Source: Gracilariopsis chorda (Eukaryota; Rhodophyta; Florideophyceae; Gracilariales; Gracilariaceae). Taken from it: 64,000 bases of DNA. How positions within the stretch are numbered: position 1 is the first letter of the stretch; every line of letters begins with the position of its first letter. The notes under the pieces were generated by a model, which was given only the letters and a program-made list of their open reading frames with translations, was not told the DNA's origin and did no database searches. The position numbers and the translations under genes are program-made. This document shows, piece after piece, positions 2,095 to 51,091 of this stretch. The DNA lies in the NCBI GenBank assembly GCA_003194525.1, contig NBIV01000093.1, forward strand, positions 62,001 through 126,000, given 5' to 3'.

Positions 2095-4990
2095 CACAGT
2101 ACCCTGTCGGCGTCGGGATGGGCGAGCACGGGCGCGGAGGTGAGAGCCACTTTGATGGAGTCTAGCGCGGACTGCTGCAGAGGCGCATCCACTCAAACTG
2201 ATGAGAGCGGAGCAAGTCAGTGAGTTGCTGCAAAATGGCGGCGTATCTGGCGGTGTACCGGTTCAAGAAGCAGCGGTAGAGATTGGCTAGGAAAATGAAC
2301 TGCTGGATTTGTTTCAAAGTACTCGATTTAGGACAGTCTTGAACCGAAGCGACAAGGCGCTCCTGCGTGAATAATCTTTTTTCTGAGACCTTGAATCACA
2401 GGAAGTCCACTTCCGTCACCCCAAACGCGCACTTGTGCAGTTTGGCGTTGAGGTGATGCTTGCGTAGTGCAGTTTGTACTTGGCAAAGGTGTTACTTATG
2501 CTCTTCAGTGAATCAGATGTACACAAGAATTTCGCCAATTTATAGCACCAGGCACTGAAAATTCGAATCAAGACGAGCTTTAGAGTTGAGGAGAAAGAAG
2601 GCTGCGGGGGCGTTGCAAGGCCTGAAGCACAGCCCGCGCTCCAAAGTGGGTGTAAATCGCCGTCTTGTGACAGTCTTCGTACTTGATTCTCATCTGGTAA
2701 TAGGCTCCAATGAGGTCTTTCTGGGAGAAGATGGTTGCTCCTGCGACTTGTTGCAAAGTCTCATCGACGAGGGACAAAGGGGTGGCGTCCGGGACCATCA
2801 CTCGATTCACCGCGCGATAGTCACAGACCATTCGGAATCGGCCAGATTTCTTCTTCACGAAGAAAACGCGAACGCCAAGCGGTGAGGAGGAGGGGCGGAT
2901 GAGACATTTGCGAAGGATTTCATCCAGTGGATTGCAGAGGATGGTGAGCTTTTGGGGCAGAGAGCCGGATTACCGGTCGAATTGGAGGCGGTTCGCCTGG
3001 TCAGAGGTTGATCTCGAAGTTTTGTTCGCGCTGTGGAGGAAGCTCGTATGGCAGCTCTTCTTTGACGACGTCCTCGAATTTTTCGATGATATGGGCCAGA
3101 TCGGTGTGGAATTCGACGGACGTGGAAGGCCGGAAGCGTAGTGCCTAGATTTCGCAGGCACGCTTCTTCAAGAGGCGGCACCTGCGTTTGAAGGTAATCG
3201 TCAGGACCGCGGGTTTGCCAATTCGCTTCGTCAAGGTTGACTGGCTACATGGCAGCAAGTTCATGCGAGAACTATCTGTGCGCTTGATGTTTAGGCTTTA
3301 GGAAGACCATTTGACGTGTGGTCGAACCTGTTAGAGCCATTGACGACCGGCGCTGACGAGCGGAAGCCTGTTGTAGTTGTCCTTCATGTCGATGACATAT
3401 GTAGTGGCGGAGGCTTTCGCATCCTGTAGGGCTATTGTAGTGTGAGCTTGGGAGTGAATTGGAACAGTAGTGTCGTGTGCAAGTTCTGTGAATGAGCACT
3501 CGGAAGGTTTCAGGCATAGTTTGCACAAGCGTGCGGTGTTAGGCGAGATAAAGGCATCAGAGGTACCTCGATAGAGTTGAAAGACAGCTGGGTGGCCGTT
3601 AACAGAGCCGTTGTACATGATCTCACCGCGGGGTTTTGTGTCCATGCGGAAAGAGTAGGGAGCGATCGAGCGCCGAGAGGAGCCGCACTGGTATGCAATG
3701 TGCTTAGTTTTTTGTGCGACTCTTCAGCCCGGAGGCAGTGCTGACGTTACGTCAGCGGGGGTAGCTTGGGTCGTTTCAATGTCCTTTACCACACTTCTTG
3801 CAGCGGTCGTGAGTGCGATAGATACGATTCTAGGATAGGTTGTGAATGTCAGCTGGTCCCCAACAGTCGGCAGAGAGTTCTTTGCCGGTCAGGGAGGCCG
3901 CATTGTTACTGAGAGAGACAGATCTTGAAGAGCGGTCCTTGTTCCTTGATTGCTTCGATCTCAACGAGAAAGTAGACGATGGCGGTTTTCGCTCATTCCA
4001 CTTCTCAGAAATGTTCAATTTTCGCATGTAGTCGGAGACTTTGGCCATATTGGAATGTCTACCATCAGAGTAGCGGGCGAAGAGCTTCTTCTTGAAGAGG
4101 ACTGGGACGCTGAGCTGGGAAAACGTAAACGCTTCGGTGACAGGAGTGTTACAGATGTCTGCCAGTTCGCAAAACTTCGTGATGTGTCCCTTGAGAGAAC
4201 CTTCATAAAATTGGAACCGAATGAGCTTGTCCTCCACAACCGCCGTTTCGTTCGCGAGGAAGAATTCAGAGAGCATTGCGGACTGCAGTTCGTCGAGGTT
4301 CTTGAAGCTCGTGCCTTCTAGTGTTGAACGAAATTACCAATGATCTGCATTGTCACGCAAACGGCAGGACACGATTTGCACTTCCTGTGAGTCGGTGATG
4401 GACGGACAGAGGCTGGTGACTTTGCGAACGTTTGAAATGAAAGATCGGACCTTCATTTAGGTTCGCTCGCTGTCTCTTCCATGGTATGTAGAAAATTTAG
4501 AAGACTTTAGAACCTGTAGGAGAGAAGTAATTGGGCCAGAATAGTTACGAGCGTGCGGCACTGCGTCCGTGAAAAGCTCTCCTTTGGGAACGAGAGGTAG
4601 TTATAGAGGTCTAGGTGGGTCATCAAGGCGGTTCTGCTACGCCTGCAGCTGAGAGACTACCATAGACATCGTGGTTTGCTGCTCCTTAATCATCGAGAGC
4701 AGCGCTGTTGGAGGAGGTTCGGAACTTGAGCGGATGAAAGTGAGCTACATGGTGGCCGTGTTTCCGAAATTGATAGGTGGATTCTGGTTCGCAGTGCCTA
4801 CAGGGGTCCAAATGAAATATTTGGGCAAGTGATGGCAGTGTTGATGAAACGTGGGCATGTACAGCTAGAGTCTGCGTCTGCGCTACCGTTTGAGAGCCAA
4901 AGCGATGAGAGGAGATGGCTTGAGACGGTGGAGTCAGAGTGGCAACCCGACGACCGAGTATGGACTGACAGGCCAGTGGCATGACGAAAA
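2095..4990 (-). mobile_element. Ty3/gypsy fossil, gag to RNase H start
   Basis: Read on the minus strand, the order is gag-like (about 4280-3830), a retropepsin-like region (about 3645-3330), reverse transcriptase (about 3180-2580, with RMVCDYRAVNR and GAYYQMRI) and the RT connection running into RNase H (about 2400-2100, NLYRCFLNRY). The 3' half is missing. The right edge abuts the start of element A at about 4990. No LTRs are visible. It is old, with well over ten breaks. It is not the same subfamily as A/B or C/D, judging by its gag and RT wording. Confidence 0.7.
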
Positions 4991-38507: not shown

Positions 38508-39737
38508 CTAAATGCGCTGCGGAATGCGAGACAATGAGTCACCTAGGACGTGGATCCTACCTTCTTGGAGGTTCACCTCCCGGATGTTAAAAGACGCTAG
38601 GGTGTCCAACCAACGAGCTTCCCGTCGATTGAGGTGCTTCTTAGTGAAGAAGTGCTTAACTACCTGATTATCCGTAATGACGTCAAAAGAAGACCCCTCC
38701 AGATAACAACGGAAACGCTGGACGGCGAAGATGAGACCCAAAAGTTCCCGTTCATTCGCGGTATAATTCTGTTCTGGTTTGGTCAAACGGCGCGACATAT
38801 ACGCAATTGCACGCTCGCCACCAGAATCATCATATTGAGTGAGAGTAGCACCTACTGCGGTCTGAGAGGCGTCTGTGTGAACACGAAAAGGGCGACTCCA
38901 ATCAGGGGGCATAAGCACGGGAGCAGTGCTGAGCGCATCTTTCAGGTCGCAAAAAGCTGCAGCCGCTGCATCATCCCAGCCTCGAATGCCAATGCCTTTC
39001 TGCGTGAGACGAGTCAAGGGGGCCGCACGTTCCGAAAAGTGGGGAATAAACCGACGGAAAAACTGCACAAGTCCAACGAAGCTACGAACTTCCGTAAGGT
39101 TCTGAGGAGTGGGCCAATTTTCTATGACCTCCATCTTCTCAGGATGGACACGAATGCAATTGCGATTGACAACAAGCCCCAGAAATTCCGTCTCGGGCTT
39201 CACGAATTCACATTTCTTGGGGGAAGCATACAGCTTATGGTCCTGAAGCCGCTGCAAGACCGCGCAAATATGTACGAGATGCTCTGTACGCATTCGGCTG
39301 TAAATGAGTATATCGTCCATGTACACGACCAGAAAGCGATCATTGTAGTCGTGAAAGACCCGGTTCATAAGTCCCTGAAACGTGGCTGGGGAATTGCAAA
39401 GGCCCATAGGCATTAATAGGTACTCAAACGGGCCATACTTTGTGTTGAACGCAGTCTTTTCGATATCACTAGGACGGAGCCGGATTTGATGGAACCCAGT
39501 CTTGAGATCCAACTTAGAAAAGTAGGAAGCCTGGCCTAGTCGATCAATCATCTCGTCGCAACGGGGGAGGGGAGCACGGTTACGCTTGGTTATGCGATTG
39601 AGAGCACGGTAATCAACAACACCGCGAAGCTCCCGTCCATTCTTCACAAAAAATAAAGGAGCGCCATACGGGGAGTTGCTAGGGCGGATCTTGCCAGAGT
39701 GAAGGAGTTTATCAACATAGGCCAGGGCAGCAACCAA
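38508..39737 (-). CDS. Element E reverse transcriptase and RNase H
   Basis: One long frame of 409 residues. The RT palm and fingers are intact in wording (LRGVVDYRALNR, LDLKTGFHQIRL, and the catalytic VVYMDDILIYS), followed by the connection (FVGLVQFFRRFIPHFSERAAPL) and RNase H with DASQTAVGATL, NERELLGLIFAV and the TDNQ block. It shows none of the small-hairpin enrichment of element F. It fits Ty3/gypsy chromovirus pol. Confidence 0.9.
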   Translation of the reverse strand: MVAALAYVDKLLHSGKIRPSNSPYGAPLFFVKNGRELRGVVDYRALNRITKRNRAPLPRCDEMIDRLGQASYFSKLDLKTGFHQIRLRPSDIEKTAFNTKYGPFEYLLMPMGLCNSPATFQGLMNRVFHDYNDRFLVVYMDDILIYSRMRTEHLVHICAVLQRLQDHKLYASPKKCEFVKPETEFLGLVVNRNCIRVHPEKMEVIENWPTPQNLTEVRSFVGLVQFFRRFIPHFSERAAPLTRLTQKGIGIRGWDDAAAAAFCDLKDALSTAPVLMPPDWSRPFRVHTDASQTAVGATLTQYDDSGGERAIAYMSRRLTKPEQNYTANERELLGLIFAVQRFRCYLEGSSFDVITDNQVVKHFFTKKHLNRREARWLDTLASFNIREVNLQEGRIHVLGDSLSRIPQRI

Positions 39738-39752
39738 CTCAGCCGGAGAGAG

Positions 39753-41055
39753 CTAGTAGAGCGTTCGATACGGAGGCTTCGATCCTGGGACAGTGTCAAT
39801 CGTATGCTGCACATCGCGCTCTGGAGGAAGTCCGTGAGGCAATTCCGCTTGAAAAACATCTTCAAATTCCTGTAGCATATCACGGAGCGCGGGGTCGTCA
39901 TGAGAAAGAAGGTTTTCTTTCTGGCTGGCATGGGCAGCATGCGAAAGGCTGTTGCAGGACAAAACCGGTCGAGAGAGCAGACGATAAATTGAGGTGTCGT
40001 CAGGGCATCTGCGAAGCAGTCTGCGAAAGCGCTTCACACTAAGGTTTGTTACACGCACCGGTTCTGTACGGGGAGTGGTGCGTGCCTTCAGCTCGTGTCC
40101 CGCGACTGAAATGATGCGCTTCTCGTAGTCTGTGTCGGGATGCTCTGCAATGTGCCACGGTATGCCTAAAAGAACGTCATACCAGCAATCAGCCACAAGC
40201 CATGTGCCCTCAAAGGAGTAATTACCGATACGTAGTGTACCAATTGCAAGTTCAGTAGCGATCTCACATGACCCTAGCTTCGAGTGATTCACATCCATCA
40301 ACGTCGGCTCAAATTGAAGGGAATCTCTGTTTCGTTCTGCGAAACGGTTTGATATCACATTTGTGGTACATCCATCATCCTTCAAAATTGAAGCCCGAAT
40401 TGAATCAAAACTTCCGTCTAAATCTAAGAGCGGAACACAAGGAGCACTGGTAGAACGACCAGACATTTGCTCCAAAAACGACACGTTTGAGACACAAAGT
40501 CCTTCCGACGTGCACTTCTTTGTTTGGGAAGGACATTTTAGTTTTCCGAGCTATCAGAGTTTGTGGATTCTGCTTCCGCTAGCGCAATCACTGCATTAGT
40601 AATGTCTACTGAACAATTGGTATTGCGATGACGGTGCTTCCATGGGCGACATCCTGCCTTATGGCATGTAAAACATGCGTTGTTCTTAATATCTTCAAGA
40701 CGCTGTCTGGAACGAACAGTAGGCCGAGCGTTCGTGTTGCCAATGTACATGGCTTCCAGGGCTGCATTCGTTGAAGCGCTGACAGAAGAGGCAAAACCAA
40801 GGGAGAGACCGTTGAAAGCAGCTTCAACACGCATAGCAATTTTCGTGGCTTCCTCGAAGTCGAAGCAGTTTGCTTTACGGACTTCAAACTGAATCTTCGA
40901 TTTCAAGCCGCCCACAAACTTGTCCCATTTCTCACTTTGGTTCATGTCAGGAACGGTCAGAACAATATTCCGAAAACGTGAAAGATATTCTGCAACAGTT
41001 CCTGTTTGTTGACAAGAGCGGAGCGAATCGCGTGCTCGTCGTTCATGGTCTTCCG
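39753..41055 (-). pseudogene. Element E protease and distal gag
   Basis: The protease part (about 40480-39760) has an active-site region reading DDGCTTNVIS and the flap-distal DVLLGIPWHI. Gag (about 41055-40540) has the capsid C-terminal wording EYLSRFRNIVLTVPDM and a CX2C-type knuckle near its end (CFTCHKAGC). The gag reading is interrupted at 41055, where F inserted, and resumes at 50562. Confidence 0.8.
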
Positions 41056-41750
41056 TGTGGCGCAATGCCCCAAAGGGGAAAAACACCGAAAGACGTTCGG
41101 GATCTTCCTCTCACGAGGTGAACCCAGTTGGGTAGAGCCCTCCCAGAGGTGCTACGGCGAAGCCGGTTTGTAAGACCAGGGACACCTGTCGCGACTCGCG
41201 CAGGGAGGTGAAGGCGAAGAATCGGTATCCGCGTGAGCGGGGTGTGATCCTCAGTAGAGGTATGTTTCCACGTAAGTGGGGGTGTGTGAGCGGATGCGCA
41301 CACGAGGGCCGCGGATAGCGGGAGGTGCTACCCTAAGAAGGAGAAAAAGAAGGGCGAAGTGAGTCGCGAGAGCGACGGGGACGAACGGCGATGCCGGTAA
41401 CAATATCCCTATACAGGGCGAAACACCAATGCAATTGGCAACAACTAGAGCCAATTCGCCAGGTTGGGTCCCTTGTTGGGGAAGGTTTACTGGTGCGACG
41501 GCAGTGCGCCGTGGCACTAAGTACTAGCTTCCCAGAAATGGGTGTGAAAATAATAAATAATATTAACTAAAATACTCCACATTTCGTGGCAACATCCACT
41601 ACTGTGGCCAACCGCCAATTGACCCAAAACCGTGTCCCACGTGTCCATATCCACCATAGTGGGGCGCAGTTCATATACACACTACACAACCGATAATATC
41701 GGGAAAGCGTTCAAGTACCAAGAATCCCTCCCTGAGGGCGTTGCACTACA
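41056..41750 (-). repeat. Element F 3' LTR (left copy)
   Basis: Starts TGTGG and ends CTACA. Paired with 49867-50561. At least 14 stems of the form CCNN...NNGG with loops of 3-5 nt lie within it, for example at 41068-41078, 41107-41118, 41229-41240, 41249-41260 and 41268-41279. Confidence 0.95.
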
Positions 41751-41762
41751 TATCCTCCCCCT
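41751..41762 (-). promoter_or_regulatory. Element F polypurine tract
   Basis: The minus strand reads AGGGGGAGGATA directly before the 3' LTR, the expected place and composition for the plus-strand primer of a Ty3/gypsy element. Confidence 0.8.
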
Positions 41763-42006
41763 AAGACGGGAAAACGACCACGGACGCTGAGGGTTCCCAG
41801 ACGAAAATGGGTGATAAAAGCGCGTAGGCCGTCTCCGGTTCTTCTTTCCTGGCATAGCCGGCTATTGTAGTATAGTGTTGTGGGGAGCTAGCTGCTCCCT
41901 TGAATTAACTTTCCGGTTTTGAACGGTGCTTCTCGGTTGAGTTCCCCGTCTTCGACGGACCTTGCCTTGTTATCCTTTCCTATCGCCCTCCGTTCGCGCG
42001 GCAACG

Positions 42007-44250
42007 TTACCCAACTTGGGCATTTACCAGACTGGCTGGAGCTGCAGTTCCCGTTTGACGGTGGTATCGCACGACCTGCGACCGTGGGAGGTGTTCGATT
42101 GGCTCCCACGTATCCCCACTGGGGTCATATTCGTGCCAGCGGACGCGGTATTGTAGAATACCATCCTGGTCCCAGGTGTGTCTGACAAGTCGGTCTACTA
42201 CAAACTCTCGTTCGTAGACCTGCCGGCCGTGCCGGGTGGTGGTTGTACTTCCTTGCGGGGGCTGCCCGCTGTGCGGTATAATGTCCCTTAGCAGGGTGTT
42301 CGGCGATAACTCCGGCGTTGCCGTGCGCTGTGATAGCGGCCGCTGCTCATGCGGGAAGATATCCCTCAGGAGGGTGTGTGCTGCCACGGTTTTCACCGGC
42401 AAGTCATTCCCCATTGGGGTAGGTTCATTTCCGCTTTCGCGGTATTGCGGGCGAACCGCCAGTCGGCGGGGGACTTGGGCTTTGCCTTCGCGGTTGAGCT
42501 CACGAACCGCGAGTTTGCGGGAAGATGACCGCTCCTGCGGGATCGGCATTTCCACAATCCCCTGGGGGGTCCCCTGCGACACGGTGATTGGGTGGCAAAC
42601 CGCCTCCCTGCCAGGCGCACGAGCGCTCTGCACCATACGTTCCGGCGATGCCGTGGTGTCCCCGGCTACTGACGGGTTGCCTGGGGCTAACTCCGGTACA
42701 CCGGTATTTTGGTCAAAATTCCCCTTCGGGGGGTGCCGGGCAGGTGCCGATGATACCCTTTTCAGGGGAATTGCCGCTAAGCGCGGTGCACCATCTCCAT
42801 GAGGAGGAGCAGCGTCCGGTACGACCGGTTTCGAGCGTGCGATGGCGCGCGTTTTTCCCGAGTTCCTCGGTTCTTCGCCGCAGCGATGCGGGGGTTGGCG
42901 CAAATTATTCCCCGTAGCGGGGGCTTCGATTCCGTCAACGACGGGAGGCGTTTCCGGTGCTTGCGAGCCAGGGCTTAAAGCTTCAACTGCGGCTTGGCTG
43001 CCTTTTTCCCCAAGAGGGGTATGGGTATTTCCCTGTGAGGCCGGCGTATCTGGGCGCCCCTTCTCCGCAAGGCGCCGGTCTGATCGACCTGATTGAACCG
43101 CTTCCGCGGGGACTTCCGCCAACGGCGGCTTCGAGGCATCGGGCGATTGCCTTTCCGCTGCTGCGGTATTGGAGTGAGGCTTCTCCTTTTTCCCGTGACA
43201 AACGGTGTATTTGCCGCCTTTGCGGGGCCTGCGCGTCTGGTTCCTGTTGCACAGCACTGCCCGGGAACGGGGGATTAGTGTCGCGTGACATAATCCGTGC
43301 TCCACGGTCAGTGTTCCGTATGTTACGGTGTGTTTCCCGTTGCGACGGCGATATTGTTCCTCGAAGACTAGTGTTCTCCTCCCCCTCCTTAGACGGAGCG
43401 GCGGGATAGGGGATAACATTCCCCGCCTGGCGTGTATAAATGCGCACCAGTGGGGCAGACGTGGTAGGGGCGGGCGCTGAGAGACCCGAATTACCCGGCT
43501 GAGCCGGTGAGTCCGACAGGGTCGGTAGGTCTGAGAGTCCCCGGCTGGGGTGTGGTAGTACCGTAGGTCTAGTACTCCCGGATGGTTCCGGTGTTGCAGA
43601 GTCCGTAGAAACGGGGTTGCCTGGATCCAGGACTACCTTTGACGAGGGAGGAGGGGCAAGGACAACACGATCACGGGAAATCCGTTCGTGCGTGTCGCCC
43701 ATCTCTACCACGACAGTGTCGGTGTTAACAGAGATGACCTTGAAGGGTCCATCCGCCACAGGCGAGAGTTTGTGACGCTTCTCCCGGTCCGGTTGTAGTA
43801 CTCCTTCCTGATGAAGACGTAGTTATTTGCCCGAATCGGGGGGGTCTTTCCTCGCAAGCGAGCGTCAAAATTCCGCTTGTAAGCGGCTTGGGCCCGTGCC
43901 ATAGATTTCCGCGCAGCGGGGGCCAGCTTGGAAAGCCATTGCTTCCATTGCTGCCGGTAGATACCCACAGATGGGAAATTGTCCAAGGTAGCTTGGGGTT
44001 CCAGCGCCACAGGCGGGGGTGTTCTAGATAGAACCAACTCGAATGGCGAAACTCCGGTAGTCCGGTGTACGTGCGTATTGTACGCGTAGGTTATCGCATC
44101 AGCGTAGAGCTCCCAATTCGTTGGGTGGTCAGCGACGTAGGAACGTAACGCCGCGAGTAACGTCCGGTTAAACCGTTCAACTTGCCCATTACACTGGAGG
44201 GTGGTAGGTAGTCGTGAACAAGTTCTTGACATCCAGGATGCGACAAACAT
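42007..44250 (-). pseudogene. Element F integrase end, long linker and chromodomain
   Basis: Begins in the integrase core (GQVERFNRTLLAAL near 44180) and runs through the integrase C-terminal region (about 43900-43660). A Pro/Ser/Gly/Arg-rich linker of more than 300 residues follows without recognised domain. Within it TLLRDI-F/I-PH occurs twice, about 30 residues apart (near 42290 and 42350). The C-terminus is a chromodomain (about 42215-42065: VVDRLVRHTWDQDG, LQYRVRWHEYDPSGDTWEP). The linker is much longer than the few tens of residues usual between integrase and chromodomain. Confidence 0.8.
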
Positions 44251-45418
44251 CCTGGAAGAACTTGCTCACGAACTGCTTCCCGTTGTCAGAGAGCGCCTCC
44301 ACAGGGGGACCGTAGACAAAAATCCAGTGCGTCACCAGAGCCTGGGCCACCATGAGAGCGGTTATCCTCCGAAGAGGGACAGTCCGTACCAGCTTAGAAA
44401 AGCGGTCGGTGATGACAAGTAGAAACTTGTTTCCACGTTTTGTGGTGAGTAGTGGTCCGAGAAGATCAATTGCGATAAACTCGAGTGGCGCCCTTGCGGG
44501 GAATAGTTTCATCTTCTTCGCAGTTTTGCGGAGTTCGACGCGATTCTTCGCGCATTCGCTACAAAACCGCACAGTTGCGTAGCAATCCACCGCCATTGCG
44601 GGCCAATAGAAATCCCTTCGCAGGGTTAGGTAGAGTTTCCTCCCACCTGGGTGACCTCCAATGGGGGTGTAGTGTGATAGATGTAACACCCGCGATTGCA
44701 GGGAATGTGGTACCACAATCTGTGGGCGGGCTTCGACCTTTCTTACGAGGTAGCCTTTGTCGTTTACCCCGAAAGGGAGATCTTCACCACCGTTGATACG
44801 GGCACGAATTCTCGTACAGAATGGGTCGCCGAATTGTTCTCGGATCATTTCTTCCGGTGATACCGGTACAAAGTTTCCCGGTAACGGGTTCTCAGATTTA
44901 TCTCGCGATGCGAGTAGTTCGTCAAAATCAGCATCCTCGTCCCAGGTTTCTGGCCTAGCCTCCACGGCATATTCCGGATCATCCGGGTCTATAGCCATGA
45001 AGCATGGGACTTCATCATCCTCCGTTGGGAGTGCTTCCCCATTTGTGGGTAACCGCAACAAGGGGTCGGCCTGGGTGTTCTGCGCACCCTTTTTATAAAT
45101 GACTTGAAAGTCATATTCCGCGAGGCAGAGTCTCCAGCGCATGAGGCGTCCCGACGGGTCGGAGATATTCATCAACCACCTCAATGAGGAATGATCCGTG
45201 TACACGGTGAAGTGAATTCCCATAAGGTAGGGGCGCAGAGTGGTCATCGCCCATACGACGGCGAGGCACTCTTTCTCCGATACGGAGTAGTTCCGCTCAT
45301 GAACATTGAGCGAACGTGACCAATAACCAATTGGATGTCGTTCCCCCTCGGGGGTGGTTTGAAAAAGAGCACACCCGACTTGGTAGTCGCTCGAGTCCGT
45401 ATCTACGGAGTATGGCAA
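44189..45418 (-). CDS. Element F RNase H and integrase
   Basis: A 409-residue frame. RNase H motifs: DTDSSDYQVGCAL, SEKECLAVVWA, YTDHSSLRWL. Integrase zinc finger: HLSHYTPIGGH then CSECAKNR, the HHCC pattern. Catalytic core: IDLLGPLLTTKRGNKF and LSDNGKQF, holding the first two acidic residues of D,D-35-E. Conserved motifs coexist with many CCNN...NNGG hairpins in the DNA. Confidence 0.9.
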   Translation of the reverse strand: MPYSVDTDSSDYQVGCALFQTTPEGERHPIGYWSRSLNVHERNYSVSEKECLAVVWAMTTLRPYLMGIHFTVYTDHSSLRWLMNISDPSGRLMRWRLCLAEYDFQVIYKKGAQNTQADPLLRLPTNGEALPTEDDEVPCFMAIDPDDPEYAVEARPETWDEDADFDELLASRDKSENPLPGNFVPVSPEEMIREQFGDPFCTRIRARINGGEDLPFGVNDKGYLVRKVEARPQIVVPHSLQSRVLHLSHYTPIGGHPGGRKLYLTLRRDFYWPAMAVDCYATVRFCSECAKNRVELRKTAKKMKLFPARAPLEFIAIDLLGPLLTTKRGNKFLLVITDRFSKLVRTVPLRRITALMVAQALVTHWIFVYGPPVEALSDNGKQFVSKFFQDVCRILDVKNLFTTTYHPPV

Positions 45419-45473
45419 CCCAAGTGTTGGGAGATGTAGGATTGGTGCTGATGTGACAGCCTCCTTTAAGGAG

Positions 45474-47570
45474 TTAAAAGCTTCCGATTGCTCGGGCGTA
45501 AATGTTCCCAGTTTTTGGGGGGTTCCACTTTCGCAACAACGCGTTCAGGGGCGCTGCAGTATCCGAAAAGTTCGAGATAAACCGTCGATAGACGTTGACT
45601 AGCCCCAGAAAGGAGCGCAGTTCCGTTTGAGTACGGGGTTCTTTCGCCTCAACGAGGGATTTGACTCGAGCGTTCTCGATCGCTAACCGTCCAGGACGGA
45701 TAATGTGACCCAGATACTTCACAGTATCTGTGGAAAACTCGCATTTCCTCAACTTGAGGGTAATTCCCGCATCGCGGAGTACGGTCAGCACGTCTCGGAC
45801 GTGAGTGAGATGGTCGTCCAACGAGTTGGAGAAGATGATAATATCATCAAGGTAGAACAGACAGCTCCGCCACTTAAAGCGGTTGAGTAGAATATCTACT
45901 GCACGCTGAAAGGTGGCGGGGGCGTTGGTTAACCCAAATGGCATCCGCTTGAAGCGGTACGTTCCTGCATGGCAGGTGAATGCGGTTTTGTCGCGATCCT
46001 GCTGTCTGACAGGTACTTGCCAATATCCCCAATTGGCATCAAGGGCCGTGAACACGGTGGCGTCTCCAAGGGAGTCAATGCACTCGTCCATACGAGGGAT
46101 GGGGTACGTGTCCCTAACAGTCACGGCATTGAGCCGGCGGTAGTCGACACAGAACCTCCAGGTTCCGTCGGCCTTTAAAGCCAGTACAACTGGGGATGCC
46201 CAGGGTGATTGAGCGGGCTCAATCACACCTGCGCGGAGCATCTTGTCCACTTGGGACTGCTCCTCTTCCCGAGCTTTCGGACCTGCCCTGTAAGGGGGTT
46301 GTGCAACCGGTCGCGCACCGGGGATTAAATCGATCCGGTGTTCCGTTGCATTAATCTCGCCAAGCGAGCCATCCCACATTGTCGTGAATTCCCGTAACAT
46401 AGTACGGAGTTTGTCGCGGTGCGACTCTGGCACGTGGCTGAAGTCCAGCGCTTCAAGTGCTTTTTCCGGATCAATCCGGTCGTTGCTCGATAGAGCATTG
46501 TCCTGTGGAACAGGTGTGGTTCGCAATTCCGAGTTACTCGGTATGTTCGACGCTGAAGTAGCGGTTTCCTCCCCCTCCTTAGACTTGACGTCTTCGGACG
46601 GCGGGGCGAACTCCTCAGAAGAGGTGGTAACTCCGAGTACATCGGCGGCTGTCATCTTTGTTGGCAGCATTCCCATAGGATGGGGGGTTATACTCCCAAT
46701 TACTTGGTGTTTGACCAGATACTGGGGGTGTTTGCCAAGGTTGGCAACCAATATCTGGAAAGGGACATCCGGGGAAATGGAGACAGTTCCATTAGCCAGC
46801 GCCAGCTGGGATTTCTCGTACAACGAGGCGAGGGGTTGTATAACCCGAAGACCGTGTTGACGGGAATTTACCTGCACCCAGACTTGGGACTCAGCCGGTA
46901 TGGAAACCGAGGCAGCGACGCGGAGCTTGGTGGACTCGCGGGACGCGGGCGGTGGTTCCTGCGCAGCAGGGAGCGGAACTTGTTTCCGAGAGGACCGCTT
47001 TAGCGGGCGGCGAACAATCGGAACTGACGAACTGTCGTCAAGTTCTACACGCCTGAGGCGGGGCCTGATTGCGTCGACAAATCTGTCGCAGTAATCACAT
47101 CCCAGTATGACTGGTGCTGCCCATGAACGGCAAACGATGAAGTCCAACTTCACTACAGAGGTACCAAGTCTCACGACGAGGTCCACTGTGCCCACCGTTT
47201 GTAACGGATTGTTGTTCGCATCCGAAATGTCGGGGACCGCGTCAGAGCGGATACGAGACTGCAAAAGCGGGGGTAACAATGATTCCACAATGAAGTTGGG
47301 GACTGCACCTGTATCCAGGACGGTGAGAAACCTCACCATAAACTGGGGATCAAGGCCAAGGTCGGCATAGACCTTATAATTGCGCTTGGCCAAGACCAAG
47401 ACTCTACCGGGAATCCGGGGATTTTTACTCCATATCCACGGGCGACGCAACACACCGAGGTGCGCAGAGTCCGCGTCAGCGGTGTCTTTCCTCGAGAGGA
47501 CTTTCACCGGGGAGCGAGGCGAGGACGCCTCGGGCGCCAACAGCCTCGTTTTTGAGGACGCCTCTCCCAA
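45474..47570 (-). CDS. Element F protease and reverse transcriptase
   Basis: A 698-residue frame. The retropepsin active site reads VLDTGAVPNFIV (near residue 86) and the distal PVILGCDYCDRF. A spacer of about 250 residues leads to RT: WRFCVDYRRLNAV, TALDANWGYWQVPV, RMPFGLTNAPATFQR and the catalytic FYLDDIIIFS, then LGHIIRP and SFLGLVNVYRRFI. All diagnostic Ty3/gypsy blocks are present. The DNA of the RT core also carries hairpins, for example around 45869-45884, 45948-45960 and 45965-45977. Confidence 0.92.
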   Translation of the reverse strand: MGEASSKTRLLAPEASSPRSPVKVLSRKDTADADSAHLGVLRRPWIWSKNPRIPGRVLVLAKRNYKVYADLGLDPQFMVRFLTVLDTGAVPNFIVESLLPPLLQSRIRSDAVPDISDANNNPLQTVGTVDLVVRLGTSVVKLDFIVCRSWAAPVILGCDYCDRFVDAIRPRLRRVELDDSSSVPIVRRPLKRSSRKQVPLPAAQEPPPASRESTKLRVAASVSIPAESQVWVQVNSRQHGLRVIQPLASLYEKSQLALANGTVSISPDVPFQILVANLGKHPQYLVKHQVIGSITPHPMGMLPTKMTAADVLGVTTSSEEFAPPSEDVKSKEGEETATSASNIPSNSELRTTPVPQDNALSSNDRIDPEKALEALDFSHVPESHRDKLRTMLREFTTMWDGSLGEINATEHRIDLIPGARPVAQPPYRAGPKAREEEQSQVDKMLRAGVIEPAQSPWASPVVLALKADGTWRFCVDYRRLNAVTVRDTYPIPRMDECIDSLGDATVFTALDANWGYWQVPVRQQDRDKTAFTCHAGTYRFKRMPFGLTNAPATFQRAVDILLNRFKWRSCLFYLDDIIIFSNSLDDHLTHVRDVLTVLRDAGITLKLRKCEFSTDTVKYLGHIIRPGRLAIENARVKSLVEAKEPRTQTELRSFLGLVNVYRRFISNFSDTAAPLNALLRKWNPPKTGNIYARAIGSF

Positions 47571-47587
47571 AAGGGAGACTCCCTCAG

Positions 47588-48913
47588 TTAGTCTTCCGCC
47601 TTCGGTGGTGGGTTGGTTTCCTCGACAACGAGTGCTTCATCCCGTTGACGGGGGTTTCTATCCGCATAAGCGGGAATTGCAACGGATGGTTGCGTGATCT
47701 CCCTAATCGGGGTGTATGAAGCTTGCCGCGCACGCGGGGTCTGTGGTAGGGCATGGGAAAAGTCCGTTTTAGCACGGAGGTAGGAAGCCGTCGGGACGGA
47801 ACGTTTCTCCTCTGGAGTGAGAGCCTCATATTTTGCCACCACCTTGGCCATATCCTTCAGTGAACAAATACACTGAGGGGAGGTATGGCCATGGGCATAG
47901 CACAGGTGGCAAATGAGAGCCAATACCGCGACACGCGGATTATTATTCCGAGTATCGGAGAAGCGAACCGCAGGGCGGGTGTCAGTCCATCCAGGCCGTT
48001 GATAACGGGATTGACCGTTTGAAAACGGGAGTCGTTGGGGTTGAACCCGACTGTTACCACTGTACAAAACGGGGTCTTCCGTTCCCGTATCACGGGTCAT
48101 CTCCGTCGTTGACGGCAAATCACTGGTGGGTATCGACACACCATCCCCCTGCACTAAATGCACGGTATCAAATCCCTGTCTAGGGTCCCCTTCCGCGGTG
48201 AGCGGGAGAGAGGAAGCTTCGCTTTCCAGCAACAACGCCTTGGCGGATTTAGACCGATTGTTCGGAGTTCTTGCACGAAGTGCATCCCCTTCCGCTCGAG
48301 CGTGTTGGACCAGCTCGAGGTAGGTGATCCTCCGCTTGTCCTCCCGATAACGGGTAACTAAACTCCGGATTGCCGGGTCAAGACCATCGATGAACATGGT
48401 ACTCCGCTCCCCAGCGGGGTATACGTTACCACATCTGTGGAAAGCCTTGTTAAGGCGCACCGAGTAATCGGTCTCGGTCTCTCCAGTACGCTGGCGTGTA
48501 TCTCGCAAAGCGAGGATAGCCTGCTGAATAGCGGTGTTGGTGGCGTAGGAGCGCAGAAGATACTGCACAGCCTCCGGCCAGCAAGTAACTCCTCCCTCGG
48601 AGGCGCGAGAAGATCCTCTGACAGAGGTGTATTGGTCCTCCGCCACTTCCCGTAAGAAATACGGTAAAGCCAAATAGGCTTGTCCCTCATTCATACCGAG
48701 GATATCGGCCTCCGCTACAAAGCGGGATAGGAAATCCAGTACTAGGACTGGGTCCTCTCCAGTAAAATACTGGTTGCGGAGCGAGAGCTGCATTCGCTTA
48801 ATGCATTCTCGCACCTTTCCCGTACCACGGGGCGTACGTCCAAGTGACGAATCTTCGAGCCGGTAGTACCGGTATGATAAATGCTTCCGGTAATCCGGGT
48901 TTGTCGGTTTCAA
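47588..48913 (-). CDS. Element F gag
   Basis: A 441-residue frame. The capsid-like helical region covers about residues 30-210 (LRNQYFTGEDPVLVLDFLSRFVAEADILG, TDYSVRLNKAFHRCG). A perfect CX2CX4HX4C zinc knuckle stands at about residue 340 (CHLCYAHGHTSPQC). Additional gag-like basic and Ser/Asp-rich wording lies upstream (about 49840-48950) in other phases and is probably the N-terminal part. Codon use is skewed by the hairpin-forming CCG/CGG content. Confidence 0.88.
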   Translation of the reverse strand: MKPTNPDYRKHLSYRYYRLEDSSLGRTPRGTGKVRECIKRMQLSLRNQYFTGEDPVLVLDFLSRFVAEADILGMNEGQAYLALPYFLREVAEDQYTSVRGSSRASEGGVTCWPEAVQYLLRSYATNTAIQQAILALRDTRQRTGETETDYSVRLNKAFHRCGNVYPAGERSTMFIDGLDPAIRSLVTRYREDKRRITYLELVQHARAEGDALRARTPNNRSKSAKALLLESEASSLPLTAEGDPRQGFDTVHLVQGDGVSIPTSDLPSTTEMTRDTGTEDPVLYSGNSRVQPQRLPFSNGQSRYQRPGWTDTRPAVRFSDTRNNNPRVAVLALICHLCYAHGHTSPQCICSLKDMAKVVAKYEALTPEEKRSVPTASYLRAKTDFSHALPQTPRARQASYTPIREITQPSVAIPAYADRNPRQRDEALVVEETNPPPKAED

Positions 48914-49841
48914 TTCCCGGAGACCGGGGTGTCTTCTCTCGTTCTAGCGGGTTCGGACCACACCTTCAGTGGCCGATGACCGCTTCGAGCGGGAGGGGTA
49001 GCCTCGCTTCTCGTCCTCCGAGTCGGAGTCCGAGGAGCTCGAGCTAACCGAATGGTTTCGGGATGAGTCCGACGATGTCGAAGAATCGGAGTCCGAATAT
49101 TTTCGGTGGTGTTTCCGTCGATGACGGCGTTTCTTCTTCCCAGCAAGCTGGTCGTTGTGCGATGCCTCGTTTACCGGATCACCCGGGGATGGTTTGTCCA
49201 TGAGGACGAACTGCTCCAGCGTCTCCAGGCGGGCACCAATCCGATCAAATCGGGCCTCGACTCCTTCGATGAAGGTGGCGGGTTGTCCCAAACTCTCCAA
49301 CACGTAGTTGACGTCAGACCGTAAAATACGGAGTTCCTCGGCGACCTCCTTTACGGGGGTTGTCGAGACCTTCTCTTGGAGGGATTTTAGTTCCCCTACA
49401 AGGGTGTCATGGGCGGTCCACAGAGCGCGGACCTGGGATTCCAGGGAAGTCCCCTGGGGGTGTTATCGCCCGTTCCACGGGGACTTGAAGCCGCAACAGC
49501 GGGAGCAGGCCGGGGTGCCTGGGGCACTGCGGCAACAGCCGGAGTCGATGCAGCATTCCCCTGCGGGGGTGATAATGAGGGCAAAAGGAGGTTCCGGGGT
49601 TCTCGGTCGGGGGTATCATTCCGCGATGAAGCGGCGCCAGCACGGCTGGAACTTGTCCGTGTAGGGATACGGGGTACGAACCGAACTTCGGAAGTGTCCG
49701 CGTTGTCGCGGGAGCGACTACGCGTAACCACTGGCTCCGCGTCGGATGGATTTCTCGACATGAGAAAATACAGTTACGACGGGAAACGATCACGGAACTT
49801 CCGGTAAATAAAAACAAACCTCGTAAGAGGGAAAACAAAAA

Positions 49842-49863
49842 CCGATTCTAGGTCGAGAGACCA
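49842..49863 (-). promoter_or_regulatory. Element F candidate primer-binding site
   Basis: On the minus strand this segment begins TGG three bases after the 5' LTR and is complementary to what looks like a tRNA 3' end: CCA, an unpaired A, seven acceptor bases, five T-stem bases and a GATT T-loop. The 22-nt complement would span the acceptor arm and T-arm. The exact tRNA is not identified. Confidence 0.65.
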
Positions 49864-49866
49864 CTT

Positions 49867-50561
49867 TGTGGTGCAACGCCCCAAAGGGGAAAAACACCGA
49901 AAGACGTTCGGGATCTTCCTCTCACGAGGTGAACCCAGTTGGGTAGAGCCCTCCCAGAGGTGTCACGGCGAAGCCGGTTTGTAAGACCAAAGACACCTGT
50001 CCCGACTCGCACAGGGAGGTGAAGGCGAAGAATCGGTATCCGCGTGAGCGGGGTGTGATCCTCAGTAGAGGTATGTTTACACGTAAGTGGGGGTGTGTGA
50101 GCGGATGCGCACACGAGGGCCGCGGATAGCGGGAGGTGCTACCCTAAGAAGGAGAAAAAGAAGGGCGAAGTGAGTCGCGAAAGCGACGGGGACGAACGGC
50201 GATGCCGGTAACAATATCCCTATACAGGGCGAAACACCAATGCAATTGGCAACAACTAGAGCCAATTCGCCAGGTTGGGTCCCTTGTTGGGGAAGGTTTA
50301 CTGGTGCGACGGCAGTGCGCCGTGGCACTAAGTACTAGCTTCCCAGAAATGGGTGTGAAAATAATAAATAATATTAACTAAAATACTCCACATTTCGTGG
50401 CAACATCCACTACTGTGGCCAACCGCCAATTGACCCAAAACCGTGTCCCACGTGTCCATATCCACCATAGTGGGGCGCAGTTCATATACACACTACACAA
50501 CCGATAATATCGGGAAAGCGTTCAAGTACCAAGAATCTTTCCCTGAGGGCGTTGCACTACA
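49867..50561 (-). repeat. Element F 5' LTR (right copy)
   Basis: A 695-bp partner of 41056-41750. Some of the few differences between the two LTRs fall inside hairpin stems and are not compensated, so stems are not maintained after insertion. Confidence 0.95.
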
Positions 50562-50861
50562 TTCCGGCACAAATTCCTGTCGGATAGCGGCAGTAAACTC
50601 TTCCCACGTCTGAGGTGCATTGCTTGCTTTTAGCACCTTGTACCACCAAATGGCTGCCGTGCCTGTAAACAAGGTAGTTGCAAAAGATATACTGTTGTCA
50701 TCACTGAGGAGGACGTTACCGTTTGCGAGTTGAACGAGATTGAAGTACTGATCTACCTTGTACAGCCAAGTGTTGACTACTAGAAAGTCGCGAGTGCCAC
50801 TGAACACTTCCGGCTTATTTGGTTTCAAGTTGATCGGCCCAGCGTTATTAGCAGCTTCCAT
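50562..50861 (-). pseudogene. Element E gag, N-terminal part
   Basis: Starts MEAANNAGPINLKPNKPEVFSG and continues with the capsid N-terminal wording WLYKVDQYF and FTGTAAIWWYKV up to the TTCCG target site of element F. A candidate E primer-binding site (TGGTAAGCATCGC, minus strand) is at 50877-50889, next to the E 5' LTR. Confidence 0.8.
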
Positions 50862-50890
50862 AATGATGAAAACACAGCGATGCTTACCAG

Positions 50891-51091
50891 TTCAACAGTG
50901 GATGTGAGTTAATGGCAACTGGGTCGATGGCCTCTTTACTAGGTATCTTCTGCCCAAACAAGAGCGCTTAAATAAGCATTCAATCTACAGTTTCGCACCC
51001 TTTGGATATCTTACTGACACAATCCGAATTACTTGACAGATTTGAGTTCCATTCCGACGACCATTTGCAACACTAGAATATTTCTGTTGCA
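50891..51091 (-). repeat. Element E 5' LTR (right copy)
   Basis: 201 bp, with two differences from 36760-36960. GTTTT follows at 51092-51096 as target duplication. Confidence 0.93.

Follow-up and report, generated by a model that had tools for sequence, protein, structure and literature searches.

Dense micro-hairpins under selection in a red algal Ty3/gypsy chromodomain retrotransposon, with Gag as a possible reader

We analysed a 64,000-nucleotide stretch of the red alga Gracilariopsis chorda (contig NBIV01000093.1, positions 62,001 to 126,000; the window), in which a Ty3/gypsy chromodomain retrotransposon, element F, is packed with minute inverted repeats along nearly all of its length. 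Selection on transmitted copies keeps these hairpins, as seen in about 4 kb around the reverse transcriptase (RT), and the trait belongs to groups of related families rather than to F alone. The explanation that we tentatively favor, at rather less than an even chance, is that the micro-hairpins form a selected structural code over nearly the whole genome, each being a contact for its presumed reader, Gag or nucleocapsid. The signal is overwhelming, visible in the raw sequence and present in several families.

Hairpin counts in element F against shuffled and synonymous controls

A sequence-only reading of the window had listed 14 hairpins of a strict form, CCNN, a loop of 3-5 nt and NNGG, in the left long terminal repeat (LTR) of F. 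All 14 were found, together with one more strict centre at 41726/41727, and the CGGC..GCCG pairs that it also named (41155, 41386) are present, as is its stem at 41363. Counted as distinct centres, the 15 strict hairpins of this LTR compare with a mean of 0.8 in 1000 dinucleotide shuffles (maximum 7), so the chance figure of 0.5 first given was too low. Over the whole of F there are 166 strict hairpins, against 13.1 in dinucleotide shuffles (maximum 27 of 100). Elsewhere in the window 28 were counted over 54,494 bases, about 0.5 per kb compared to 17.5 in F. Across the nine 1-kb bins between 41001 and 50000 strict density runs at 13-23 per kb, and in bins off the element at 0-2 per kb. When 4-bp stems of any sequence with loops of 3-5 nt were counted, eight of nine F subregions carried 33-47 hairpins per kb (z 5.5 to 13.3). 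Chance level was seen in the other one, a 256-bp piece of 3' non-coding sequence (3 hairpins, z 0.1), and the 1-kb flanks of F showed no enrichment (z 1.7 and -1.5).

F is somewhat richer in G+C than its surroundings, as would be expected if composition, codon bias or chance produced the hairpins, but the dinucleotide shuffles and a synonymous-codon control refute such an origin, and we give it practically no weight. Each coding stretch was permuted synonymously 200 times, and all five exceeded every permutation: 49 hairpins against 17.7 in gag, 26 against 10.1 in the N part of gag, 83 against 29.2 in the protease and RT stretch, 45 against 16.3 in integrase and RNase H, and 60 against 24.6 in the linker and chromodomain. 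The RT core alone had 36 against 11.7, with one codon phase favored (20/36), and phases were mixed in five other families. The earlier proposal that the pattern runs through LTRs, gag, RT core and linker therefore holds, and the shuffled and synonymous controls, which had been named beforehand as its test, gave counts far below those of F. Its companion claim, that elements A-E of the window are without the pattern, agrees with five other RT-bearing stretches, presumably these elements, in which no excess was seen (z -1.4 to 0.2). For the RT at about 39006-39905, taken as that of E, z was -1.0 and the synonymous control gave 10.5 where 4 hairpins were observed.

Most of the excess lies in hairpins whose stem is 4 or 5 bp and whose loop is 3-5 nt (loop 4 with stem 4, 102 against 31 in shuffles; loop 3 with stem 5, 66 against 7.5). 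The unit as first described, a 4-bp stem with a 3-5 nt loop, thus captures the main part of the signal and not all of it, since 5-6 bp stems closing loops of 1-2 nt are over-represented too; what the excess follows is the outer span, about 10-14 nt. In F, longer loops of 7-12 nt are near chance, and stems of at least 6 bp with loops of 3-5 nt are few (19 in F, about 8 in shuffles). Folding energies, computed for sampled segments of F on both strands, were lower than shuffled at 150 nt (-47.8 against -42.0 for sense, -52.1 against -46.4 for antisense), and a control stretch gave z 1.1 at 25 nt, -2.9 at 50 nt and 0.5 at 150 nt. Inverted repeats are identical on both strands, and their spacing, near two helical turns, would suit palindromic sites in double-stranded DNA bound by a dimeric protein. 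The variable span and the mixed stem letters of three related families (L039, L049 and L050) argue against such sites, which we judge very improbable.

Selection among copies and the trait in related families

A comparison of private with shared variants separates selection from mutation. About 4 kb around the RT was aligned from 30 copies (L009-L038), which form two subfamilies of 14 and 16 rows, and variants within subfamilies in open frame were scored against controls matched for base, neighborhood and codon phase. Single-copy variants broke hairpins at chance (108/340, expected 105.4+-8.0) and created them at chance (27/340, expected 30.3+-5.1). Variants shared by at least two copies broke only 16/118 (expected 31.9+-4.9; none of 400 simulations as low) and created 11 where 10.8 were expected, and those shared by at least three copies broke 10/72 (expected 18.2; 2/400 simulations as low). 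At third codon positions only, breaks were 11/87 for shared and 44/151 for single variants. When the subfamilies were scored separately and codon phase was not controlled, shared variants broke 6/77 in one (expected 19.9; 0/300 as low) and 10/49 in the other (expected 14.7; 22/300 as low). Because private variants fall at chance while shared ones avoid breaking stems, new mutations are blind to the hairpins and transmitted changes are filtered.

These counts bear on the two causes that had been offered from the sequence. Selection for local structure is supported by the shortage of breaks among shared variants. The other cause, mutational drive, in which hairpin-templated copying by RT perfects near-palindromes, fits Watson-Crick stems that show no wobble preference, but it runs against singletons that create no excess of hairpins, barring rare clustered events that singleton counts would miss. 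Stems that are mostly 4-5 bp long and shared variants that avoid breaking them also oppose this mechanism, and we regard it as remote. An earlier form of the variant test (43 breaks against 79) was set aside since it was dominated by fixed subfamily differences in a diverged, less hairpin-rich 3' block. The two subfamilies are near-identical through RT, and the 212 sites fixed between them lie in a downstream block of pol (alignment columns about 2630-3980), whose divergence suggests recombination between F-like lineages. Both versions of this block are hairpin-rich, with 36 and 28 per ~1 kb.

The property had been ascribed to a single element, and that stands insofar as the other elements of the window lack it; it is common, however, to related families, including one from another assembly. 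Across stretches of 4-9 kb, dinucleotide shuffles gave z 20.4 for F, 16.4 for L039, 17.8 for L047, 6.5 for L048, 13.3 for L049, 14.8 for L050 and 11.1 for L051, with three other stretches of the window at chance level. The family from another assembly, L055 (105 hairpins over the whole stretch against 46.5, z 10.0), is contig JALZUP010000409.1 of a Robiginitomaculum metagenome-assembled genome (MAG), probably contaminating eukaryotic DNA in a bacterial MAG. It was one of 14 loci in a scan of other genomes' contigs; the other 13 had z -2.3 to 3.0, and L058, L068, L060 and L063, at z 2.1 to 3.0, stayed under the cut for saturation. Each of 29 near-copies of F (L010-L038), which were kept out of the RT z comparison, has 14-16 strict hairpins in its RT, the window copy having 13, and first-look searches returned 4576 RT candidates for F, related families possibly included.

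In an RT tree, rows were labelled saturated at an RT z of at least 3.5, with L010 and L019 labelled as near-copies of F. All nine rows around F and all five of a second group (L039, L041, L049, L050 and L055) were saturated, the two groups having 63-82% RT identity to F, and neither group's branch reaches the tree's support mark. A third group, at 54-63% RT identity, is mostly unsaturated: 2/17 rows pass the cut (L075, z 4.4; L076, z 3.5) and the other 15 have z -1.4 to 2.2, which again speaks against composition or chance. The unsaturated L078, with 63% RT identity, is as near to F as the saturated L049 and L050. Three label changes are required on the tree, two of them forced by well-supported branches, consistent with one gain followed by losses or with several gains. 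L111, a gag piece with z 3.5 from the L077 family, which is labelled unsaturated, speaks against a clean split.

Families differ in the letters of their stems. The closing CC..GG that had been taken as typical is strong in F and L051, where CC leads clearly as the outer stem, and moderate in L047; in L039, L048, L049 and L050 outer letters are mixed, with CC not leading or barely so. Loops of 4 nt are favored in L039, L049 and L050. Individual sites also differ: in the RT core, L047 (75% nucleotide identity) has 12/36 F centres in common (expected 1.5), L039 (63%) has 5/36 (expected 1.3) and L050 has 2/36 (expected 1.2), so the sites shift without loss of density. For nine more closely related family pairs, whose counts were taken both ways and are not independent, fourfold-site identity was 0.45 in stems, 0.34 in loops and 0.32 outside hairpins, and doubly changed stem pairs were still complementary in 89/143 cases, compared to 738/2010 control pairs. 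Distant pairs were little above control (116/288 against 1141/3196).

Gag as a possible reader of the hairpins

The case for a code read by Gag is built from the excess over synonymous controls, the presence of the trait in relatives, the turnover of sites, their spacing and the purifying selection on stems. The putative reader is the element's own Gag or nucleocapsid with its CCHC knuckle, to one subunit of which a short hairpin (about 12 nt plus linker) would offer one contact, and the genome would then carry many weak, equivalent assembly sites instead of one strong signal. The available part of a Ty3 study gives ~20 bases of genome per Gag (PMC6525542); with a footprint near 20 nt, an equivalent site would be available to most Gag knuckles. 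Family dialects, with closing CC..GG in F and L051 and other letters elsewhere, might reflect Gag specificity, which would let each family package its own RNA. A stronger version, which we hold to be possible but doubtful, makes the array a continuous assembly ruler, protein genes included, on which each Gag subunit, with its ~20-nt footprint, could have a 4-bp hairpin of its own; in this version sites drift, density and family stem dialect are selected, and the genome is message, template and scaffold. If true, how a Gag lattice reads its genome becomes directly testable.

A CCHC knuckle was seen in F, L047, L051, L039, L049, L050 and L055, with Tyr after the second Cys in all seven of these saturated families in which the region was seen, and 36/61 Gag relatives hold a CCHC-like match to a looser pattern. 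No knuckle match was found in L075, L077, L080, L081 and L111, whose pieces may not span it. Centre-to-centre distances pooled over eight families peak at 21-23 nt (172 against 119 under free placement, z 5.1), with 152 at 18-20 nt (z 2.8) and 136 at 24-26 nt (z 1.6), a depletion at 12-14 nt (64 against 119) and a weak second rise at 45-47 nt (145, z 2.4). The peak holds against hard rods of 12 nt (z 6.1).

Several observations weigh against a Gag-read code. The 20-base figure comes from yeast Ty3, and F itself averages 36.8 hairpins per kb, or one per ~27 nt, sparser than one per 20, with about a third of them expected by chance. Against hard rods of 17 nt the 21-23 nt peak is not in excess (172 against 179), which indicates a lower limit on spacing, roughly 17 nt or more, and not a proven period. 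Near-hairpins show no sense preference for G-U over A-C (888 against 1079, partly base composition), once-broken stems show none either (21 GU, 30 AC, 66 other), and the hairpins have no loop consensus, so sense RNA is not demonstrated as what is read; it is a plausible form, single-stranded DNA or the antisense strand being possible ones. A CCHC knuckle, lacking the Tyr, occurs in the unsaturated L069 too, a single family. Among variants, the 0.9-kb linker showed no significant avoidance (6/32 breaks, expected 8.5+-2.3), nor did the 212 fixed inter-subfamily differences (40 and 50 breaks where 44 and 54 were expected). Tandem units described below combine F-type LTRs with a non-F interior, and that interior is only weakly enriched (z 2.3). 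Lastly, MS2 packaging signals share a loop recognition motif, as the available text of PMC6281560 has it, and F hairpins are without one.

The rival that we take most seriously, though we consider it unlikely, is evasion of silencing. Hairpins on both strands would leave few unfolded stretches of siRNA size, hindering guide loading, target pairing and the formation of sense-antisense duplexes, with stems far below Dicer length. This would account for the missing strand preference among mismatches, and it accords with folding below shuffles on both strands, the scarcity of stems of at least 6 bp, the coverage of the LTRs and the abundance of F; microRNAs of Chondrus crispus, at 18-23 nt and most often 19 in the accessible part of PMC4872230, also count in its favor. 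However, sister families without the trait persist in many open-frame copies too, weak 4-bp stems may not block Argonaute, and evasion alone leaves the closing CC..GG dialect of F and L051 unexplained. Were it true, transposons would have a novel means of escaping small RNAs.

A role in reverse transcription or in the cDNA is, to our mind, improbable. Here the hairpins would serve pausing, strand transfer or protection of minus-strand DNA, or would avoid long-range misfolding or recombination between copackaged genomes. Coverage of nearly the whole element and the lack of strand preference fit such a role, as do the unenriched 256 bp by the candidate polypurine tract, where plus-strand priming may need an open template. 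We know of no reason, however, why this role should require a 4-bp unit or a family dialect, and the trait is missing from sister families.

The array has partial counterparts in known systems. F shares with other chromoviruses a gag with a CCHC knuckle, RT, RNase H, integrase, a C-terminal chromodomain, TG..CA LTRs and a 5-bp target duplication, and differs from them in that its array is genome-wide and saturates even the long linker before the chromodomain. We know of no Ty3/gypsy chromodomain element with a genome-wide micro-hairpin array, and a literature search, outside of which lay most subscription journals and all bioRxiv preprints, found no such element described. Structural codes that overlap genes have been argued for RNA viruses, in which the sites tend to be few and degenerate. 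The low folding energy of the sampled F segments resembles genome-scale ordered RNA structure (GORS); F departs from it in that its unit is uniform, 4-5 bp with a limited span, that G-U pairs are not preferred and that the host is an LTR retrotransposon.

Dispersed packaging signals of MS2, hepatitis B virus (HBV) and others, as far as the available portion of PMC6281560 describes them, are likewise many scattered, coding-compatible stem-loops, those of F being predicted from sequence. The F hairpins have minimal stems, are very dense and have a putative Gag partner; no loop motif was found in them, and the closing CC..GG is prominent in F and L051, less so in L047, with mixed letters in the other families. 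The RNA of yeast Ty3, from the same superfamily, has structured regions dispersed over its genome in the accessible text of PMC11381356, where they form a mosaic of stable and dynamic regions instead of a micro-hairpin array.

Parts and surroundings of element F

By domain order, LTR pair, target duplication and CCHC knuckle, F is an ordinary Ty3/gypsy chromodomain element. Pfam matches on its minus strand run RVT_1, RT_RNaseH, H2C2, rve and Chromo; the protease had no Pfam match and is placed by position in the frame that holds RT. The two 695-bp LTRs are 98% alike (12 differences) and the element is bordered by the 5-bp target duplication TTCCG. The nearest RT and Gag relatives with a named source are from Agarophyton chilense, a red alga of the Gracilariaceae. 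An Rfam search of 40-52 kb of the window gave no match, and a search of viral contigs found no relative of F (30 stretches returned in one scan, none related).

Table 1. Coordinates of element F and its parts in the window
Feature	Position	Strand	Basis or remark
Element F, Ty3/gypsy chromodomain LTR retrotransposon copy, frames disrupted, saturated with micro-hairpins	41056..50561	-	LTR pair, target duplication, Pfam domains, hairpin counts
Left LTR (3' LTR in sense)	41056..41750	-	15 strict hairpins
3' non-coding stretch	41751..42006	-	not hairpin-enriched
Candidate polypurine tract	41753-41762	-	putative; within 3' non-coding stretch
Linker and chromodomain frame	42007..43632	-	38 strict hairpins; Chromo ~42079-42204
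RNase H and integrase frame	44189..45544	-	RNase H ~45113-45502, H2C2 ~44540-44713, rve ~44198-44488
Protease/RT open frame, 720 aa	45474..47636	-	RVT_1 at about 45699-46175
gag open frame, 451 aa	47588..48943	-	relatives in Agarophyton chilense
Gag CCHC zinc knuckle, CX2CX4HX4C	47870..47911	-	pattern match
Leader and N part of gag frame	48944..49866	-	43 hairpins, 46.6 per kb
Candidate primer binding site, TGG-initial	49851..49863	-	presumed; 3 bases inside 5' LTR
Right LTR (5' LTR in sense)	49867..50561	-	13 strict hairpins
Micro-hairpin array, 4-5 bp stem, 3-5 nt loop	41068..50513	.	strand unspecified

Judging by open frames, F appears to be nested in element E, fragments of which would flank it at 39644-41110 and 50493-50891. 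These fragments are without hairpin excess and form a natural same-site control.

The window LTRs match each other over all 695 bases, and nearly all other scored places match only 1-392 and/or 376-695. At two loci (L003 and L005) the two LTR parts lie 92 bases apart, giving LTRs ~109 bases longer in which the 17-bp overlap occurs twice; the window LTRs thus seem to have arisen by deletion between short direct repeats. Hairpins are likewise abundant in the additional sequence of the longer LTRs. The tandem units with F-type LTRs occupy about 30.3-36.8 kb of C99 (L005-L008) at a period of ~1.87 kb, and their interior of ~1.06 kb has no match to F and a longest frame of 235 aa. A similar tandem arrangement is indicated in C997 by the spacing of matches.

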